A stretch of 64,000 bases of DNA, from positions 62,001 through 126,000 of the forward strand of contig NHZP01000048.1 in assembly GCA_003313425.1 (NCBI GenBank), given 5' to 3'. Positions 48,985 through 64,000 of the stretch are shown piece by piece. Numbering within the stretch: the first letter of the stretch is position 1; each line of letters opens with the position of its first letter. The notes below the pieces were generated by a model. The model had not been told where the DNA came from. It saw nothing but the letters and a program-made list of their open reading frames with translations, and searched no databases. The stretch comes from Pseudopyrenochaeta lycopersici (taxonomy: Eukaryota > Ascomycota > Dothideomycetes > Pleosporales > Pseudopyrenochaetaceae). The position numbers and the translations under genes were made by a program.

Positions 48985-50666
48985 GACTCGTTGTTAGGCC
49001 CATGTGTGCTTAGAATGCATCGTGAAGCTATATTATGGCTTATTGTGCGATCGTCGCCAGTGGCAGACTACATGAGGAGTAACGAGCTCCTAGTAACCAT
49101 TGCATAATGCAACTGCTTTTAGAAAGAGCTGTCTTCATAGCAATTGTGTATAAAATTCATCAACGTTCGAATGCTGGTTTTCCATAATGGCTCTGCATCA
49201 ATATTACAATGTGACATTGAGTGCAGCCACCACGGCAAATGATTAGTTCACTTGACTGATACTAAAAGTTTTAGATGCAAACCAGATGCCTTCGCCTCGT
49301 TATTGAGCAGAACCAAAGCGGAATACCCCGAAATGGAAAGGCATCAGTATCTCTTCAGTCTTCCCCCGATCACAGTATTCCAAAACTTGGAGGCACGGTG
49401 AGCCATAAAGCTGGTAGACATCGCGCGGGCCAAACATTTATTTGCTATACTCCTAGCGATGTTCCTTTGTTGTAGGGGTGGGATCAATATTGGATTGTTC
49501 TCATAACTTTCCAAGTATGCCAGGTTGATGATACTTCCGCCATGTTACTGTAAGACCGCTTGAAACGAACCCATAACAACACTGTCACGTGATGGGCGAC
49601 CTCAAGATTCATCTGGTGCGGTGTACCTGCCAGCAGGAATATCGTGGAGGACGATAGTATGAAACTAGTGCTCGCATCCAGGGTTGCAGAGTCTAGGCTT
49701 CAGTGCACTAGCACTATAAACCCAGCTTTCAGGTGTCAAGCTACTATGTTGGTTATGCAACGCGCAAAATTGGACCTTTTTCATTCTTGGCCGGTGTATC
49801 ACGCGTGAACAAAGATCCTATGGTGCAGCCACGCCGGTCGAACTTACATATTCCAACAACCAGGCGGGGCTGAATACAAAGACTTGTTTACTGTCGAAGT
49901 CGAGTACTCGACATCATGAAGCAAATCTTCTTCGGGGTCGTTAATCCGTAGCTTGACAAATCGCCCGATTACCGTCTCCCCCAATGTACTGCTTCAAATG
50001 TCCTGGCCATATGCTATGTTCGCTTCTGCGGCGTGGATCCACAAGCCGCCGGACGGCAAACCGTGCAAGCTTGGTCTATAATTTGTCGGATAGAAATTTC
50101 GTAGCACCTAATCTTTAATGTGATTGCGACCAATTCGCAGAAAAACTCGAATGTCTATTGTGTCGTAGAACCAGCGGCCACGTGGTGCACCTTCCGCGAC
50201 CCTGCTCCTAAAGCCACCGTGGATACACCGCCACCAGCGAGAGCTAGCAATCCACCACCACATCCGTGTATTTGTATGACTAAGTATACCCGAAATGAGC
50301 AGTAAATTGCAGAAATTCCCAATTTGGGTTGCAGGTCAGGGTGGCGATACGATCTGGTCACGCTAAACCCTGGCCCGTCTCGCCCCCAGCTCTTGGCATC
50401 TTACTTTTTAATTTATGTCTTACTCTTAGTAATCGCATGCCCGTATTCCTCACTTGAACATCAATTACACGAGCTATCATTCTAGGAAGTTGAATGGAGA
50501 AGGCAATATCGACCACGATGTATAAGAGAGAGAGTTTTACAAGACTATGGACAGCAACGACGATTACAATATCTTCGAAGCTCGCATCTTATACGAACAC
50601 AACCATACTGCACCTCGGTCTCAGTGTCCAACATTCTTCAATCGCTGCTTCCACCCATTTCGCGAT
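48985..50666. other. Intergenic region, nothing recognised
   Basis: 1.7 kb between the transporter relic and the NLP-family gene; the latter's promoter is at the right end. No gene, RNA or repeat was recognised. Confidence 0.4.
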
Positions 50667-52871: not shown

Positions 52872-55800
52872 CTAAACACTTTTTGACGCCTCTGAGTCAA
52901 TCCCAACAACCTGACACCTGTCAATCAACCTTTTCCAAACTCTCTTACTCTCATCTAATTCACCATCTGCTCCTACTCCCGTCAGCGTGGACCTACTACC
53001 AATAATCACTACGCCACGCTTTGCCCTCGTCATCACAACGTTCAGCCTACGCATATCGTCTAGGAAACCAATTTGACACGAAACATTGCACCGCACAGTA
53101 ACAAACACAACAATATCTGCCTCGCGGCCTTGGAAACCGTCGATAGAGGAGACATCAATATTTGGTATGGCAGAGCTGAGAGCTTCCTTTTGGCGAGTGT
53201 AGGGTGTCAAAATAGCTATTGTTGGATTTTGAGTACTCGGAGACACCGAAGCAGTTCCAGTAACAGGACTGGTTAGAAGCTGAAGAACACGCTTGCATAG
53301 CTCAACCTGACCTTGATTAGCCTTCGATTCCCGGCCCAGATCTTCCGAGTCGTTGCAATCGATCCAAACCATGCGATTATCTTTCGGCCAAGGAAATTGC
53401 GACGTAGGTATTGAGCGTTCGTTATCTGCAGTCGCTGTCTTCAATTTGCCCTCGTAGAACTCGGTAGAGCTAAAGCTGCAAATCATACGGTGCATGCGGT
53501 ACTGTGTGTCAAGCATGACTTTGGCTATACCATCACGCTTTGGCATATTATAATGCCTTTCAAACAACGAGATGTCGTAGCCTGTGAGTACGGCGTTCTG
53601 TTGCACCGTAGCACGGAGTTGAACGTGGTCACCAACCAGGATTGCGCGCGAACACCCTTTCACCAATGGCACGAGAGTCGTGGGCTCCGTCTGTTGAGAG
53701 CCTTCATCTATAATCACCACATCGAACTTTTCGTCGCGCAGGAGACCAAGGCTTGCGCCAATACACGTGGAAAAGATTAAGCGCGCTTCCTTAATTCGCT
53801 TCTGTGCTTTACGTCGCGCGGAAAGATTATTAGAGAGATCTTTACCCAAGATGGCATCGCAAGTATAAATTCGAAGATCCGGGGATACCTTAGATAGCTG
53901 GAAGTAGTATTAGTGGCAGTGGCGGACACTTGAGATATCGCTGGCTTACCTGGGTTGACACTCTCACAGGAGTAATACCCAAACTCTTGGCCTCTTTATA
54001 GCAGACAAATCTTCTAAGCATATTGTCGACGGCATTTTGCGTTGGCGCCGTGACGAGGAACCTTGCTGTAGGCATTGTCCTGTAAAGCTGGAACAGAATA
54101 ACAACTATTGTGTGCGTTTTTCCAGTCCCAGGAGGACCCCATATCAGGGTTAGGGGATAATTCATGGCTGCTGTCAAGGCATCATTCTGGCTCGCATTAA
54201 GAGTCGGATCCTTCACTGGAGATGATTTGACTCCGGAAAATCTGCTCTGCTCAGTATCAGGTATCCCCAGAAGAGAGGCGTATATGCTGCAACAGGCTCC
54301 ACGTTCGGTGTAAAATATCCTGACAGCGTCGAATGATGTTTTACTTGTAACAAAGGAGCCGCAATGAGCAATAGCCCACGCGCATTGATCGACGTATGAA
54401 GGGGGGTGGTGCAGACACCTGAATGTGGCAATCCCCGTCTCCGCGTTCAGTGTCAGAGCGTCCATGGAGAAAGGTTTCGCAAACGGGTCATTCTGCGGGG
54501 AGCTGGTGACAGTCAGCCGAACATGGTCACCAGCTTTGAGAAACCCGCTCATCGATGAGTCTACGCGTAGAATGCTCTTTACAATTGTGTAGCCATCCAC
54601 GTAGTCTTCAATTTCAAGCTTGATCTGCTCCTGCTCATGCCTTGATCCTCTTGCTGCCTCATCGATGTGATCAAGAGCGATGCCGAACAAGGACAATGTA
54701 AACTGGCGAGTAGCTATGGGACGACCAACAATGATTCGAGGCGTCTCTGGTTCTAGGACTTCAAGAAGAAGATCCAAAGCAGCCTCGGGTGAGCGAACAG
54801 TGAGTGCGATGAGCTCTACTAACTCGGCAAAGTTTTGCAAAGTCATTCTCTTAAGTTCATGTATCAGAAGCAAGATAGGCTGCTTGATGAAGCTTTTAAG
54901 TTCGTTGCTTGCTAAAACAAGTTCCTTCGCAATGACTGGAGCTAGAGAGACCAGATCGTTCTCAATGGCTCCCTTGTAGCTGCGCCATGTTGCAGACTGT
55001 AGGAAGGTTGAGGTCAGATACGGCGCATCTGGCAAGTAATGCATCAAAGTTGATGCAACTACCTGGCCATTAAGTCTTAAAGCTGAACTTCGCTCAAGTA
55101 ACAGCAGTTGGGAGAACACATTGCGAAGCCGTGCTCTTTCGTGATGCTTCTTGAGCAGATCTAAAATCTCTAGTAGGTCAGTAGTAGACTTGGCCTGCTG
55201 AAGCGAAGAAAGATCATTATCGCGACAAACATTTCGAATAAGATCTGTACGCTCATCCCATGCGACATTCTCTAATTTTTGAACTTTGTATTCGAGTTGG
55301 AGCTTTTCGAATAGCGGAAGGACGTCCTCAGTATCAACATATTGTAGCCACTGGTCAAGAACATTCATAGAAGCAATATCTCGATTACTGATTGCATACA
55401 CCTCCTGCCACAAGTTAGTACAGCCGGATAGAATGACCTGGCATCCGACTTACAGCACCAAGGACACCTTCGCCCTGGACCTTGCCCACGTGGGTTTGTA
55501 TATCGCGGCTGATCTTGTCAAGAGCAACACTTGCTTTGCATTCAAAATTAATTTTCTTGCGCATGGTATGCTCTCTTGCCCTACGTTTGTCCCCTTGACT
55601 TTGTATCGCGCGATATAATGAGTCATCTCCTCTAGGAGCTCTTAAAAAGATCCAAGTATTGCTTCTTTGTTGTTGGTAGAGTTGGAAGACATGTTCATCG
55701 CAGTATAGTCGATAATGAACCTTTGTAGGCATGACGCGGTAATTAGCTGAGTGTAGTCCTTGGGAGTGTGGGAAGACGAAAATTCGCACATTACCGTCCA

Positions 55801-58220
55801 CAGATACCTCACTAGCGCGAGCAATCTTTTGTGGAACGTATATAGCCATGCTTAGACGTTCGGTAATGTTCAATATGATGATTTTCTTGTGGAACAACTC
55901 CAATGAGCGACATAGTAGAGGGAGAAATCTTCCCATGCGGTCATTGGCAGACCGGAAAATTGGTTTCCAATGCAAGCGCGGATGTTGCAATCCAAACCGA
56001 CAGAGCTCGTTAGGATGTATGAGCTCAGACTGGAGAAGCCCATTGCGAACTAAACTCGGTGCTGTCAGAGACGGTGGTAGTAGGCTAAGGAACCAGATTT
56101 GTTGTTCGTCGGTAAGTGCACTAAAGTTAATGTATTGTTGGTACTCCATCACATCAATGTGGTGCCGGTCACACCATCGGACCACTATTTGCAGTAACTC
56201 GAACTCTGACATGGCCATTTTATCGCGACACATAAACAAGTCAATAATTTCCGGATCATCGTGCACCTCTGGTACCAAATTAGCTGTACTTTGAATGAGT
56301 TTCGTACACGCCTGGTGCAAGACATCCAGAATGAATGGCGCAACTGATGATCGTGGTTCGGGTTGGTCTTGGAGGTTTTCGAATGCTTTCAAGTTCTCGG
56401 GGATCTTGATGTGGTTCCCATCAACACATTGGGAAAAAAGTCGGTTGAGCTGTTGGCATTGAGGGCTCATGGCATCTCCCAGCCGAGCCCACTTCATATA
56501 GAGATTTTTGACTCTACCCAAGGATGCGTTAGTGTAACGGGCGAAGTATTCGGCACGGCTGTCACCAGTAACATTGCCAAAAGTGATAAGCTCCTTGCCA
56601 CCAGGATATTGCGCAGGTTCAGCCATTGTCCTGGGAATAATGTCGCTATCCCACGTAACAAAGACTGCGAGGAGATTGAGTCTCAGTGAAAAGCCTATTT
56701 GGTAGGATTTGTCTTCGAACTTACATTTGTCGCCATCGAGATCCCCCCCAGACATTAAATCAGCGCTCGGCCGCTTACCCTTTGTCGAGAACACGATGCA
56801 ATCGACTAAATGTGAGAACTCGGGCACATCGATTGCCTTGAACTTTTGGAGATCCCCCGGATGAAGACATGGATTTCTCGTTACCAACACTTCAGTATTG
56901 ATGATGGTCCGAGCCCTACCATCACAGTCGTCTGTGAAGCGTACAAAGCACTCCCCCTCCCTCAGCCGTCCCTTACAGCCACCTTTCGCTGTTGGGTCAC
57001 AGACTCCAAATATTAATCGTGACTTCGGAATAAGGATGCGACACCGCTGTTCGTGACGCTTGTTGATCATTCGTGCATATTCCTGCTTGACCAAACCTTT
57101 GAGGTTGGTAAGAACTGAGCTTAGACCTTCCAATAGCATTTTTTCCGCTAAATCCATTTTACCTATGAAGGAAAGGAATTGAAAGGCAGCCCTGTGGTCA
57201 CCTTCGCTGACGTTTCTGAGGAAATTCAGATACTGTGCTTGTTTGCTGAGCAAAACCTCTTGGGAGATGCCCAGCGTATGTAGAAGCACGACAATCTCAT
57301 CATTCAAGCTACCAAAAGCGTAAGGCTAAATCGAATTAGCCAATGAGCACCGACGCAGAAAGATGTAATACCTTAGAGTAGTCCACAATGGCGAAACTGT
57401 GGTCTGGCGAATCCTTGAACTTCCGCATGGACTCTCGGAATTGAACCTGGACTTGACATTGCAACGTTGGGTCCAGTGTCAAGACGCCTTTATAACCGCG
57501 ATAGCGGACCTGAAAGACAGATGGAAGATACCTTCTGTCACGAAAGATGATGTTACGCATTTGTGCTAGCTGTTTAGCCAACTTGGTCGAGATAAGGCCG
57601 CAGCCATCAGTGTAGATGTAATCCTTTGTGGCGACATCGTCAATGTCCTGGCAGCGTTCTGGTGGTAGGCTGTGCGTTACTTCGGCGCTCGAAAAGAGAA
57701 GTCCAATGCGTTTGGCCTTCTTGCCAACAGACTTGAGCTTTGATAGATCTCCCATAGCCTCAATTTTCGCCGATATTTCCTCTTTGGACGCAGCGTATAG
57801 GAAACACGATCTCGACTTGAGCTGACTGTTGGAATGACCGAAGAAGTGGTATGCGATACCATTGAGAATAATACCAGAAACAAGGATTCGTGTGATCCAA
57901 TCACCATTTTCCCTGCCTGTAGCCGGTCGTGAAGATTCACCCACGGAAATTGCAGGCCATTGTAACCAAAAATCGGCGAAAGAGAGTAGAATAAACCTAT
58001 CGAGGATGTTATCCCTAGTGACTCGGTTATCGGGAGCGGTTTCGAAACGAAGGGTAATGCTTTGCTTCTGTGTCGACGAAACAACCGCCACATGCTTGAT
58101 GAACCGTGCCTGATTCGTACACTGGGGGTCTGGAAGTTGCGGGATCAAGTAGTCCCATTTCTCGTCTTCTGGTGAAATTTTATTCTGCAGAACAACCTCG
58201 AATGATTTAAGATTTTGCAT
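52872..58220 (-). CDS. RNA-dependent RNA polymerase fused to SF1 (Upf1/SDE3-like) helicase
   Basis: Four exons (58220-57372, 57325-55454, 55404-53950, 53897-52872) give 1733 aa. Residues 1 to about 900 are a silencing-type RdRP: YIYTDGCGLIS (about 202-211), PSVFQVRYRGYKGVL, VLVTRNPCLHPGDLQ, then the catalytic loop SGGDLDGDKC (DLDGD at 478-482). From about 908 on it is an SF1B helicase: GPPGTGKT (1330-1337), DEGSQQ (1456), GDHVQL (1481), QYRMH (1524), IDGFQG (1644) and RRLNVVMTRAKR (1675-1686). The joining intron, 55453-55405, is 49 nt with GTAAGT, TACTAAC and CAG. It links the two halves in phase 0, and no stop precedes it. RdRPs make double-stranded RNA for Dicer, and partner helicases (Hrr1 in fission yeast, SAD-3 in Neurospora) normally act in trans. 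The RdRP part is shorter at the N-terminus than QDE-1 or SAD-1. Confidence 0.93.
55405..55453 (-). other. Intron that fuses the RdRP and helicase halves
   Basis: Minus-strand order: donor GTAAGT, branch site TACTAAC about 35 nt later, acceptor GGCAG; length 49 nt. Both flanks are in phase 0 in frames independently defined by RdRP and helicase motifs. Reading through would stop after about 12 codons, so splicing decides whether the fusion is made. Confidence 0.85.
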
Positions 58221-58469
58221 CCTTAGTGAAGTGCGATCTGCTAAAGAAGGTGTTTAGTTAGGCGTCCTGCTGGGAAGGAGGTTCGTGCGGGGTTGTAGCT
58301 GACGTGAAGTGAGTCCTGCAGACGCGGTGTAACACACGTCACAGTTGATTAAGTGGGCAGATAAGGCATTGCAGTCCGCACATGCCAACAGCATAATCCG
58401 ATTTCGCGTTCGTTTCTTTCTCTTCTTACTATTCCTTACCTATCTCGTGTGCGACGGAAAGCGTGCATA
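58221..58469. promoter_or_regulatory. Short shared promoter between RdRP-helicase and P-loop NTPase genes
   Basis: Only 249 bp separate the two divergent start codons, so the genes probably share control elements. A CTAAC...CTTTAG acceptor-like string on the minus strand just before the RdRP ATG (about 58245-58265) leaves open a short 5' leader intron. Confidence 0.55.
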
Positions 58470-59105
58470 ATGAGAAACACCTACATCATCGGCGCACAAT
58501 CAACCGGAAAGACCACTCTAGTCAATGCTTTAGCGGCAATTTTTGAGGCTCGTGCAGAGAATCCTCACTGGATCTGTTCACAGCCACCATCGATAATCCG
58601 CGAAGTGGCTCGCACAGTCTTAGACCAGAAGGGATTCAGCCGCAGAGACATTACCACTTCTCCAGTCCGCGCTCTACAACTCCAAAAACATATTCTCGAC
58701 GCTCAATACAATGCTGAAACCAAAGTTTGCCCTTCTGGGAACAAATCAGCATGGTGTATCTGTGATCGATCTGGGTTGGACCCAATCGTATACGCCAAAT
58801 GTTTTGTCGGATTAGACGCGTCAGCGGAATTGCTCGCGTCGAAGACCTGGCTAGAGCTAGAGGATCGCATGAAGGAGGGAATTGTGATTCTGTGCGAATC
58901 AGGGTGCAACTGGCTGGTAGATGACGGAATACGATTGATGCCAAGGGATCAAGATGAGTGGACGAACATTGATCGCACCTTTCGGGACCTGCTGGAGGCA
59001 CGCAACATTAGCTATGTCGTTGTGAATAAGAATATGACAGAACTTGAAGACCGGGTGGAATATGTGCGACAGCTCATTGATACACTACACAGCCAGACAC
59101 CATGA
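58470..59105 (+). CDS. AAA_28/NadR-like P-loop NTPase
   Basis: A single exon. ATG 58470 (211 aa) starts directly before the first strand and is preferred to an in-frame ATG 21 bp upstream. Walker A is YIIGAQSTGKTTLVNAL (residues 4-20). A Walker-B-like WCICDRSGLDPIVYAKCF follows, and a lid region with conserved Arg/Asp ends in LVDDGIRLMPRDQDEWTNIDRTFRDLL. This is the layout of AAA_28/NadR-type nucleotide-binding kinases. Fungal members are of unknown function; phosphorylation of a small nucleotide-like substrate is a family-level guess. Its tight head-to-head pairing with the RdRP-helicase gene suggests co-expression. Confidence 0.87.
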   Translation: MRNTYIIGAQSTGKTTLVNALAAIFEARAENPHWICSQPPSIIREVARTVLDQKGFSRRDITTSPVRALQLQKHILDAQYNAETKVCPSGNKSAWCICDRSGLDPIVYAKCFVGLDASAELLASKTWLELEDRMKEGIVILCESGCNWLVDDGIRLMPRDQDEWTNIDRTFRDLLEARNISYVVVNKNMTELEDRVEYVRQLIDTLHSQTP

Positions 59106-60165
59106 TGGCACACAATGCTGAAATTAGCACTCGCAAGTGAAGCGATGCACTTCCCTTATAATTAGAATACTTCCTCTAGAAAAGCTTTTAATGTTTCCTA
59201 AGCACAGTATTACTTTGGATTTAGGGCTAATCAATTTGATGTTTTACTCTATATAGTAACAGTAGTACATGCTACTAACATCTCGAAAGAGATATTAGTA
59301 GACTTGGTATTAACTTTTAACCGCGCAACGTAAGCGCTAAGAAAACGTAGTACTAAGAATTACGCTATTGCTTTATCTACTACATAACTAGTTAGAATTA
59401 GTATACTAAGCTCCCCTTCTTAAAGTAAGTTGATTAGTGTCTTATAACGATCTTAAATGCTAATAGTAGGCTACGCAGGGCTAGTGCCGCTAGTTCCTAA
59501 GAACGTAAGTTAATTTTCTAGAATAGAGTAAGATACTAAACATTTAAGATCTAATTAAGTAGTTGCGATTGTTGCTGAGACAAGATAATTAGTTCCGTTA
59601 GATATCAGCGCGGAGCCTACACATTAGAGTGCGAATTTAAGGTATTTAATTATAGTTTGTTACTTAGCTAATACTCTAGAGCAGGTTTGTAAAAGGAGCT
59701 CTGTAGTGCACTCTAATCTAGATTTCGGTTCCTTTACGATGATATATGGGTAACATAGCGTCGCCTATAGTAGTTTTGAATTTGTTTACAATACGACAAT
59801 TAACTGAACGATTCTAAGATTCCATTTCGCTAGCCGGATCAGTCTTGTTCCTCTAGCTAATCGAGCTGATATACCGACTTGGAACATAGAAGGCAATTAC
59901 ACTCACACTATCTATTAGATACGGAAGCATCTTTAGGCAGTGTTATGTACTGGGAATACACGGTATTGCTGCTAACCCTGCGCTAGCGACACGAAGGGTT
60001 AGCGCCCTATGCGCACGCCTCTATCTGACCTTCACCCTTACAGTTCGCTTCCGTGGGTGGCGCACGCGCCGCGAGCCCTTGCTTAAAGCTGCAAGAATCC
60101 TGGGCCGGCTGTGCCGCACCCTTTCTTAAACTCAGACTGCTGCAACATGGCCCTCTAAAGCCTCG
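59106..60165. other. AT-rich gene-free stretch
   Basis: 59106-59960 is strongly AT/TA-rich with no open frames, similar in texture to 7000-7800. It is probably RIP-mutated repeat DNA. 59990-60120 turns abruptly GC-rich (GGCGCACGCGCCGCG) before the glycosyltransferase gene. No RNA gene was recognised. Confidence 0.45.
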
Positions 60166-62254: not shown

Positions 62255-64000
62255 TCAAATTAAGCACACTGGCATCCTGTACTTCTTTAACTTTCCCCAC
62301 AACTCCCCATTCATCACGCCGTGAACGTACGTCTCCCCAATCAGTCTGAAGCAGCCATCTTCCACCGGCCTCAGCACTAACGGTAATCTACCCCCCTTGA
62401 ATAACCAAACCCGGTCGCCCTTCTGGAGCGATACAAGACCAAGGCCTAAGTAGCCTGTCTCGGTTGTGAAAAGCCGCCTGTCCGGACCATCGCCGGTATG
62501 TCGAGTGAGCACACGACAGAACTGCCCGGTGTTGAGGTCAATCTCCTCGCGCTTCTTTGAGTGTTGTAATGGCAGATTCAGGTCGCCAGCTTCCATGCGA
62601 ATCTGCACTTCGGTGTAAAGCTTAATCTCATAGGGCGTTGGCCAACAAGATCCTGTTGCATATTGCTCTTTGAGAGAAGGTAGAATCACTTGCTGGAGAG
62701 CGCCATTGTGCTTCCTAACTTCAAGCCCAATGAATTGATTGAGCATGAAGTCGTGGAACATTTGCATAGAGATATGCTTCATAGAAATCTGAAAGTTGTC
62801 CAGCCTATTGAGGCACAGCGTCCGCCAAAGGACATCCAAAAGAAAGACTTTGGCGTACTGGGTCGTGCTATCGACACCGTTGAGCAGATCAAACCAAGAT
62901 TGCATGAGCCCCATGGTGTAGAGCAGGAACGAGTCCTCTTCGTCCCAAGTCGGTGGCATTTGTACAATGTTTTGAATCCCGGCGATGGCGCCGAGCTCAG
63001 CTCCATTCAACCAGAGCTTTTTGTCCTCAATGCGGATGGTTCTAACTCCCAGGGCTCGGTCAAATTTACCTCTGGTGGCATTATATCTGTCAGCAACATC
63101 CCCAAGTCGAAGGGGATGTGAAGAAACCGTGAAATCAGGTACCCAGGAAGGCAGATTGGTCAATCTCCGCTTAGACGGATCTTCAACATACGAGAGTAAG
63201 GTTAGTTCCGGAAGACATTGCAGGAGGATTGTAGCCGTTTTGATGTACGTTCCTACCACCGTTGCCTTATAGTCAGCTTTCAACGGCGGACTAACTTCGT
63301 ATGCAAGACCTCGTTTTAGGAACCCAAGAGCAGCGAAAATCCGATCCCTATCATCAGAAGCATCTTTGCTGCGAAGGATCCCTAGACAGTCAAGAAAAAA
63401 GGCATACCCAGCAGAGCCTCTTGGAACCCGGTAGATTTTGGCATATTTCTTCTGCGATTCGGAAGCATTCTTGACATGGTGCTGCTGAAGTTGACTAAAT
63501 GAAAGGATCTTCGTCCAGGGATGGGCTTCGGCATCGTCCTTGTCCGCGATACCCCTAAAGAAATAGCTGGAAAGCCCAGTGTACCTGAAGAATATTGGTA
63601 TCACGGCGAGCTCATCAAGAAGAAACTCATTATCACCGCAGAAAAACCTGACTTCTGTTGCAAATGCCACTTCCTGAACCACCCAGGCACGACTAAACCA
63701 TCGTCGTTCGGAAAAAAATCGATAGTAAGTATGCCAGTCGAATTGGCAATCTTTCGAGCCCAAATTCAATCGTTCATAGAGATTCGTGTGATGCCAATCC
63801 TCACGGCTCAGAGCTGTCCGGTCGTTGACCATCATGAAATAGGATATCGATGGGACAAGCTTCCTATGCAGCGCTCTAAAATCCGCAATGTCTCTCTCGA
63901 GCTCTTCACCAAGCCAGACGATAAGCTTTTGACAGCAGTTGTAGATCTTATCCATCAAGCTGACTTGTGAGGCACGCTCCACAAGGTCGTCCTGGTGGAT
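62255..64000 (-). CDS. HET-domain (heterokaryon incompatibility-type) protein, 5' part outside the window
   Basis: The frame is open from the right edge to the TAA at 62255, at least 581 codons in one exon. The first residues seen (IHQDDLVERASQVSLMDKIY) match the block that follows WxDAICINQ in HET domains, so the true start lies a further 60-100 or so codons outside. VIWLG-type (LIVWLG), RRWFSRAWVVQEVAFA, the DRIFAALG segment and the C-terminal FRLIGETYVHGVMNGE are characteristic. HET proteins trigger non-self recognition or programmed cell death in filamentous fungi, and many act as effector domains beside NLR-type receptors. No additional domain is visible. Confidence 0.93.
   Translation of the reverse strand: MHQDDLVERASQVSLMDKIYNCCQKLIVWLGEELERDIADFRALHRKLVPSISYFMMVNDRTALSREDWHHTNLYERLNLGSKDCQFDWHTYYRFFSERRWFSRAWVVQEVAFATEVRFFCGDNEFLLDELAVIPIFFRYTGLSSYFFRGIADKDDAEAHPWTKILSFSQLQQHHVKNASESQKKYAKIYRVPRGSAGYAFFLDCLGILRSKDASDDRDRIFAALGFLKRGLAYEVSPPLKADYKATVVGTYIKTATILLQCLPELTLLSYVEDPSKRRLTNLPSWVPDFTVSSHPLRLGDVADRYNATRGKFDRALGVRTIRIEDKKLWLNGAELGAIAGIQNIVQMPPTWDEEDSFLLYTMGLMQSWFDLLNGVDSTTQYAKVFLLDVLWRTLCLNRLDNFQISMKHISMQMFHDFMLNQFIGLEVRKHNGALQQVILPSLKEQYATGSCWPTPYEIKLYTEVQIRMEAGDLNLPLQHSKKREEIDLNTGQFCRVLTRHTGDGPDRRLFTTETGYLGLGLVSLQKGDRVWLFKGGRLPLVLRPVEDGCFRLIGETYVHGVMNGELWGKLKKYRMPVCLI

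Follow-up and report, generated by a model that had tools for sequence, protein, structure and literature searches.

A predicted polymerase–helicase fusion gene of the FgRdRp5 type in Pseudopyrenochaeta lycopersici and its gene neighbourhood

We analysed a 64,000-nucleotide stretch of Pseudopyrenochaeta lycopersici DNA (C48:62001–126000, where C48 is contig NHZP01000048.1; hereafter the window), focusing on a minus-strand gene at 58220–52872 that joins an RNA-dependent RNA polymerase (RdRP) to a helicase. This is very probably a single fungal gene of the type of FgRdRp5 from Fusarium graminearum, in which a silencing polymerase resembling the plant RNA-dependent RNA polymerases (RDRs) is covalently followed by a C-terminal, UPF1-like helicase of superfamily 1 (SF1). 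The gene is a real, well-formed member of a known, little-studied kind; compared with this already described architecture, the fresher part of the finding is its gene neighbourhood. Genome-wide searches covered 62.7 Mb in 188 contigs, and positions without a prefix refer to the window. 

Gene structure and coding frame

The gene is composed of five exons that encode one protein of 1713 residues. Exon 1 (57372–58220) starts with the ATG at 58220, and a paralogous piece on contig C55 aligns from its own methionine at residue 1. Intron 1 (57326–57371, 46 nucleotides), which opens with GTATTA and closes with TTTAG, leads to exon 2 (56725–57325), carrying NPCLHPGD and the catalytic DLDGD. Intron 2 (56665–56724) is followed by exon 3 (55454–56664), which contains the C-terminal part of the RdRP half, and intron 3 (55405–55453) separates the RdRP half from the helicase half. 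Exon 4 (53950–55404) spans residues 888–1279 and helicase motif I. Finally, intron 4 (53898–53949, 52 nucleotides) precedes exon 5 (52872–53897), which provides helicase motifs II–VI and the stop codon.

A Pfam scan of the 1713-residue protein identified both halves with scores far beyond chance. The RdRP domain PF05183 (E value 7.6e-117) covers residues 59–575, corresponding to 56390–58046 with introns included, whereas the UPF1-like SF1 helicase core, matched by AAA_30, AAA_11 (5.8e-42) and AAA_12 (1.9e-50, residues 1479–1674), occupies residues 1288–1674 (52992–54204, intron included). The motifs of the RdRP half, TDGCG, NPCLHPGD and DLDGD (within GGDLDGD), are located at residues 204, 434 and 478, and those of the helicase half, GPPGTGKT, DEGSQQ, QYRMH and TRAKR, at residues 1310, 1436, 1504 and 1662. 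All seven had been named in a preliminary description of the window as evidence for one gene, and all seven indeed fall within one spliced frame. The DxDGD catalytic motif of silencing RdRPs is present within the PF05183 match, and RNA synthesis itself is predicted from it. The intervening region, residues 888–1279, taken alone matched no Pfam family even at E 10; its predicted structure is mostly helical at its start, in a low-confidence model (mean predicted local distance difference test score, pLDDT, 48.8).

That same description had proposed a model of 1733 codons. The single continuous protein stood but the length did not: the protein has 1713 codons because the 60-nucleotide in-frame intron 2 (56724–56665) had been read through. 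This intron was assigned from the motif spacing of other RdRPs in the genome. Its removal gives the catalytic region DLDGDKFFVTWD, the spacing of which matches DLDGDDYMVLWD on contig C4 and DLDGDIYGIIWD on contig C23.

Intron 3 bears out the earlier claim of a 49-nucleotide joining intron (55453–55405), as it reads GTAAGT...TACTAAC...CAG, lies in phase 0 and has no stop ahead of it, and the intron and its flanks are kept in a paralogue on contig C27. The branch-point-like TACTAAC holds an in-frame TAA. We infer the splicing of the gene from its sequence and from the presence of introns 3 and 4 in the C27 paralogue. The position of that TAA within the branch-point-like motif, and an early in-frame stop in the C27 intron as well, would also fit regulated retention of intron 3, giving two products, the complete fusion protein and a helicase-free RdRP; however, most short introns are expected to hold early stops, and we consider regulated retention unlikely.

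Relatives of the two halves and the known architecture

The RdRP half was placed by phmmer ranks against PDB chains. The closest four chains, which matched at 1.1e-62 to 1.7e-61, are plant RDRs. They include 7w82, entitled RNA-dependent RNA polymerase (1.1e-62), and 7eu0, entitled RNA-dependent RNA polymerase 2 (1.5e-61), and the other two go by one or other of these names. Among solved structures this half is far from QDE-1 (2.7e-16). PF05183 has nine matches in the genome, on five contigs (C4, C10, C23, C55 and C48, the last being the fusion gene). The RdRP on C10 is QDE-1-like, with 2j7n as its best match (1.3e-84) and the motif DYDGD, whereas the RdRP on C4 and the 275-residue piece by which the C23 RdRP was placed are nearer the plant-type chains.

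AAA_12 has 19 matches in the genome, and C48 is the sole contig carrying both PF05183 and AAA_12; C27 is not counted because the greater part of the PF05183 region is missing from its RdRP portion. When 14 helicase cores were placed in a tree, drawn from this genome only, with several long branches and 5 of the 11 inner branches drawn open, the fusion and the C27 copy form a pair (support 100/100) outside a six-member clade (99/98) that contains a ZNFX1-type gene on contig C1; the C27 copy was read in a single frame that is out of frame for about 30–35 residues around intron 4, with a slight effect on one row. Among solved structures the helicase matches NAM7/UPF1 at 6e-53 versus 1.7e-19 for ZNFX1, and the ZNFX1 domain PF25396, found in the C1 gene, is absent from the fusion protein in Pfam searches. 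The tree and the domain content therefore identify the helicase as UPF1-like and show that a ZNFX1-type helicase exists separately in this genome. UPF1/NAM7 provides the closest solved core, and GPPGTGKT, QYRMH and GDHxQL are common to the fusion and the UPF1 of this genome on contig C18. However, the fusion shows differences from UPF1: UPF1_Zn_bind (CH) and UPF1_1B, both found in the C18 protein, have no match in it at E 0.001, motif II is DEGSQ in place of DESTQ, and a long extra region lies ahead of the helicase core.

These results bear on whether the gene could be a fused RNA-directed RNA polymerase complex (RDRC), one chain of RdRP and SAD-3/Hrr1-type helicase doing the work of Rdp1 and Hrr1. 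The RDRC of fission yeast (Rdp1–Hrr1–Cid12) and SAD-1/SAD-3 of Neurospora likewise pair a silencing RdRP with a helicase, but as separate proteins, and Hrr1 is a helicase of the ZNFX1 kind, whereas that of the fusion is UPF1-like. The same two enzyme kinds are present here, and joint action of RdRP and helicase in Neurospora (PMC7763443) and in fission yeast (PMC11237814) would suit such a fusion. Against it stand the position outside the ZNFX1-type clade, the lack of the ZNFX1 domain, the stronger NAM7/UPF1 match and the separate ZNFX1-type gene on C1, with the helicase class set by way of ZNFX1 rather than by direct comparison with SAD-3 or Hrr1. A fused RDRC is thus improbable, and the earlier proposal of a built-in RDRC-like machine, with a merged Rdp1–Hrr1 or SAD-1–SAD-3 pair, is not supported. 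The contrast drawn earlier with the RdRPs of Dictyostelium fits: those carry a Dicer-type DExD/Helicase_C helicase at the opposite, N-terminal end, and the helicase here is an SF1 enzyme at the C-terminus.

That the architecture is unreported is not borne out by the literature. FgRdRp5 (FGSG_09076) of F. graminearum was described in 2015 as an RdRP with a C-terminal helicase in one protein (PMC4515635), its helicase domains being DEXDc at 1277–1478 and AAA (PF13087) at 1475–1677 (PMC11237814). It shares with the window protein the order of an RdRP domain followed by a DEAD-like/AAA_12 helicase, closely similar helicase coordinates (1288–1471 and 1479–1674 in the window protein), its standing as one of several RdRPs in its genome and an RdRP nearer plant RDRs than QDE-1. 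A plant-like RdRP half has been described for it (PMC4515635; PMC4870495), with a position near Arabidopsis RdRp2 and RdRp6 (PMC4870495), and it forms a separate branch in an RdRP tree (PMC11237814). Because the architecture is already in print, the window gene is, by architecture and coordinates, a further member of this kind. In a 2024 study, deletion of Fgrdrp5 reduced ascospore discharge to 47.6% of wild type and affected exonic small interfering RNA (siRNA) accumulation (PMC11237814), and an antiviral role has been guessed (PMC4870495) or listed (PMC6764512) for it. A candidate RdRP of the lancelet, BL02069, also carries an extra AAA_12 domain (PMC6396948), so that RdRP and AAA_12 occur in one predicted protein there too; it differs in being an animal protein and a prediction only, and the domain order and helicase class are not given in the excerpt. 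No RdRP–helicase protein is mentioned in the excerpts of two papers on fungal RNA interference genes (PMC4290597, PMC6572790), and a dust-mite paper (PMC5805368) considered as an AAA_12 case was dropped, since the word match in its excerpt was a journal code.

UPF1-type helicases move 5′-to-3′ on RNA, and the polymerase reads its template 3′-to-5′. Sharing one strand, helicase and polymerase would work against each other, so the simplest division of labour would be one in time. The helicase could walk 5′-to-3′ along a single-stranded target RNA, clearing structure and bound proteins, and bring the polymerase to the RNA 3′ end, where synthesis would start and copy back to the 5′ end; the resulting double-stranded RNA would feed Dicer and Argonaute, genes for which are present in the same genome. 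Alternatively, the helicase may track the displaced strand of the duplex in the direction of the polymerase. The walk-and-copy-back mechanism taken by itself is possible rather than probable. It presupposes enzymatic activity, a helicase polarity as in UPF1 and a double-stranded RNA product, all of them putative for the fusion protein, and a role in RNA silencing is suggested by analogy with the exonic-siRNA phenotype of the Fgrdrp5 deletion. For the first steps of silencing, a covalent RdRP–helicase would offer a single purified protein in which to follow how unwinding and RNA copying are coupled, a difficult task with separate partners, and the Fusarium deletion already connects proteins of this type with small RNAs.

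Paralogous copies and the age of the fusion

Contig C27 contains a broken copy of the fusion gene, identified by tblastn, in which residues 543–887 are 62% identical and residues 888–1703 60% identical to the window protein. Exactly at residue 887/888 the aligned parts are separated by 58 nucleotides reading GTAAGA...TTCTAAT...TAG, and a GTGAGC...CAG intron occupies the place of intron 4 at the same residue, after VSTQ. Introns 3 and 4 are thus common to both copies at the same residues. Intron 3 has diverged between them (49 versus 58 nucleotides), whereas its splice sites and the protein flanks are conserved. With the same introns and conserved flanks in the C27 copy, the fusion must predate the duplication.

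Comparison of the window gene with the C27 copy, with stop and gapped codons left out, gave identities at second and third codon positions of 0.83 and 0.47 for residues 840–887, 0.85 and 0.46 for residues 888–935, and 0.78 and 0.30 for residues 888–1130. These values were used in place of the ratio of nonsynonymous to synonymous substitution rates (dN/dS), for which 5 of 8 stretches had no finite dS; the ratios for the three short ones at the junction were 0.097, 0.17 and 0.101. Based on the codon-position identities, protein constraint has acted to either side of the junction and on the unassigned middle region.

The same comparison decides against two abutting genes, an RdRP ending at the TAA within intron 3 (55417–55415) and a helicase whose start would be the ATG at 55368. 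In favour of this reading, the unspliced frame ends at that TAA, and the first in-frame methionine of exon 4 (residue 900, MNVLDQ) follows it; the gap between two such genes, however, would be just 46 bp, conservation in the C27 copy extends to either side of the junction, including the residues before Met 900 (EVYAISNRDI/EIYVISNRDV), and what that copy keeps of intron 3 is its splice sites and not its sequence. We reject the two-gene reading as highly improbable because intron 3 occupies an identical position in the C27 copy and is flanked there by conserved residues. Equally hard to credit is that the gene is dying and has become a partly decayed relic, as have its relatives on C27 and C55, both truncated and the former also bearing stops. 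All 1713 codons of the window gene form an open frame with the motifs intact, its guanine–cytosine (GC) content is 0.473 against 0.478 for the window, and its composition is unlike that left by repeat-induced point mutation (RIP).

Several points weigh against a single spliced fusion gene of the FgRdRp5 type. The C27 copy, from which the support for the introns derives, is broken, with 12 in-frame stops (14 on the tblastn path, two of them near intron 4, where the path had lost the frame), and it changes frame after that intron. An unspliced transcript of the window gene would meet a stop 12 codons past exon 3 and yield the RdRP alone. The grounds for kinship with FgRdRp5 are the architecture, the coordinates and the nearest relatives rather than a comparison of the sequences; FgRdRp5 itself is possibly not critical in hairpin-RNA silencing (PMC4870495), and the walk-and-copy-back model is conjectural.

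The C27 copy ends at residue 543, beside an AT-rich block (L035:6860–9001; GC 0.197, TpA/ApT 1.68). RIP as the cause of its decay is unsupported, the copy itself having a TpA/ApT of 0.8 and a GC content of 0.474. The second piece, on C55, corresponds to residues 1–280, at 41–71% identity over three stretches aligned by tblastn. About 280 bp separate the point where this piece is truncated from a DDE_1 transposase remnant (L031:2899–3330). Residues ~281–542 turned up on neither C27 nor C55 within the sequence read, and the PF05183 search adds no further place; the two pieces may stem from one former gene or from two.

The AAA_28 gene and its neighbourhood

Upstream of the fusion gene and divergent from it lies a plus-strand gene (58470–59105) for an AAA_28 P-loop kinase-like protein of 211 residues, counted from the methionine used. 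The two start codons are separated by an intergenic region of 249 bp (58221–58469), which may be a shared promoter. The assignment of this protein is loose: its PDB match to NadR is weak (3.5e-4 over 31 residues), its matches to NCBIfam (NadR) and Thymidylate_kin models are all below cut-off, no PADLOC model matched it, and its structure model is poor (mean pLDDT 47.2). In the genome, with 29 of 61 first-look candidates scored, AAA_28 occurs at three places over cut-off and at one weak place below it. The three are the gene beside the fusion, a gene that adjoins the RdRP piece on C55 and is likewise divergent from it, and a gene on C27; the other two proteins are 59% and 39% identical to that of the window.

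On C27 the AAA_28 gene sits between the only viperin match of the genome (67173–68222) and a Dicer. The viperin match is supported by PDB viperin chains (to ~1e-140) and by the NCBIfam and PADLOC viperin models, being over the cut-off of NF038283 and below that of TIGR04278. The Dicer (~69.8–73.4 kb) contains Dicer_dimer and two RNase III stretches, with Helicase_C in a second open frame, so that the viperin-to-Dicer stretch extends over C27:67173–73417. It is followed by an Argonaute (~82–84.6 kb), an SF1 helicase (~86.9–88.8 kb) and the broken fusion copy (~99.7–103.4 kb), and the order across about 36 kb, read except for 76001–82045, is thus viperin, AAA_28, Dicer, Argonaute, SF1 helicase and fusion copy. 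AAA and AAA_lid_6 domains were also identified just downstream of the C27 SF1 helicase (L042:5621–7999), perhaps in the same gene.

By a crude estimate based on uniform placement, the chance that one gene lies no more than 5 kb from any of 16 such loci is 0.0026, and the chance that two independent genes do so is 6.5e-6; in 200,000 random placements viperin never fell within 20 kb of both Dicer and Argonaute; these estimates are post hoc and ignore gene density, and the C48 and C55 arrangements are duplicates of each other. Most silencing genes lie outside the C27 set, as the genome holds four Dicer_dimer places and seven Piwi matches at six places, one of which is a short, stop-containing fragment. 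The kinase CMPK2 is reported to be required by viperin, and 15% of the viperin genes of bacteria to adjoin a kinase of this sort (PMC11249213). Within open-licence papers no fungal viperin–Dicer gene cluster was found, and those that link viperin with mycovirus do not, as far as their entries show, concern one.

Tentatively, the RdRP–helicase and AAA_28 genes might be parts of a fungal antiviral set, together with viperin, Dicer, Argonaute and a second helicase, that underwent duplication and was in part disrupted, perhaps by transposons. The kinase could supply or charge nucleotides for viperin chain terminators, and the RdRP–helicase could turn viral RNA into a Dicer substrate. The linkage of AAA_28 to viperin and Dicer would offer a concrete and testable fungal link between RNA silencing and nucleotide-based antiviral defence.

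A dynamin-like GTPase is encoded at C55:54171–56027, near the truncated RdRP piece and its AAA_28 gene; its best PDB match is Mx1 (3.8e-25), slightly better than a dynamin (4.4e-24). Elsewhere in the window, an open frame at 50526–51467 matches NPP1, a necrosis-inducing protein family (7.5e-32), the region at 60130–60792 matches the CAP59_mtransfer (mannosyltransferase) family (3.4e-43), and a HET-domain open frame at 62258–64000 runs to the window end.

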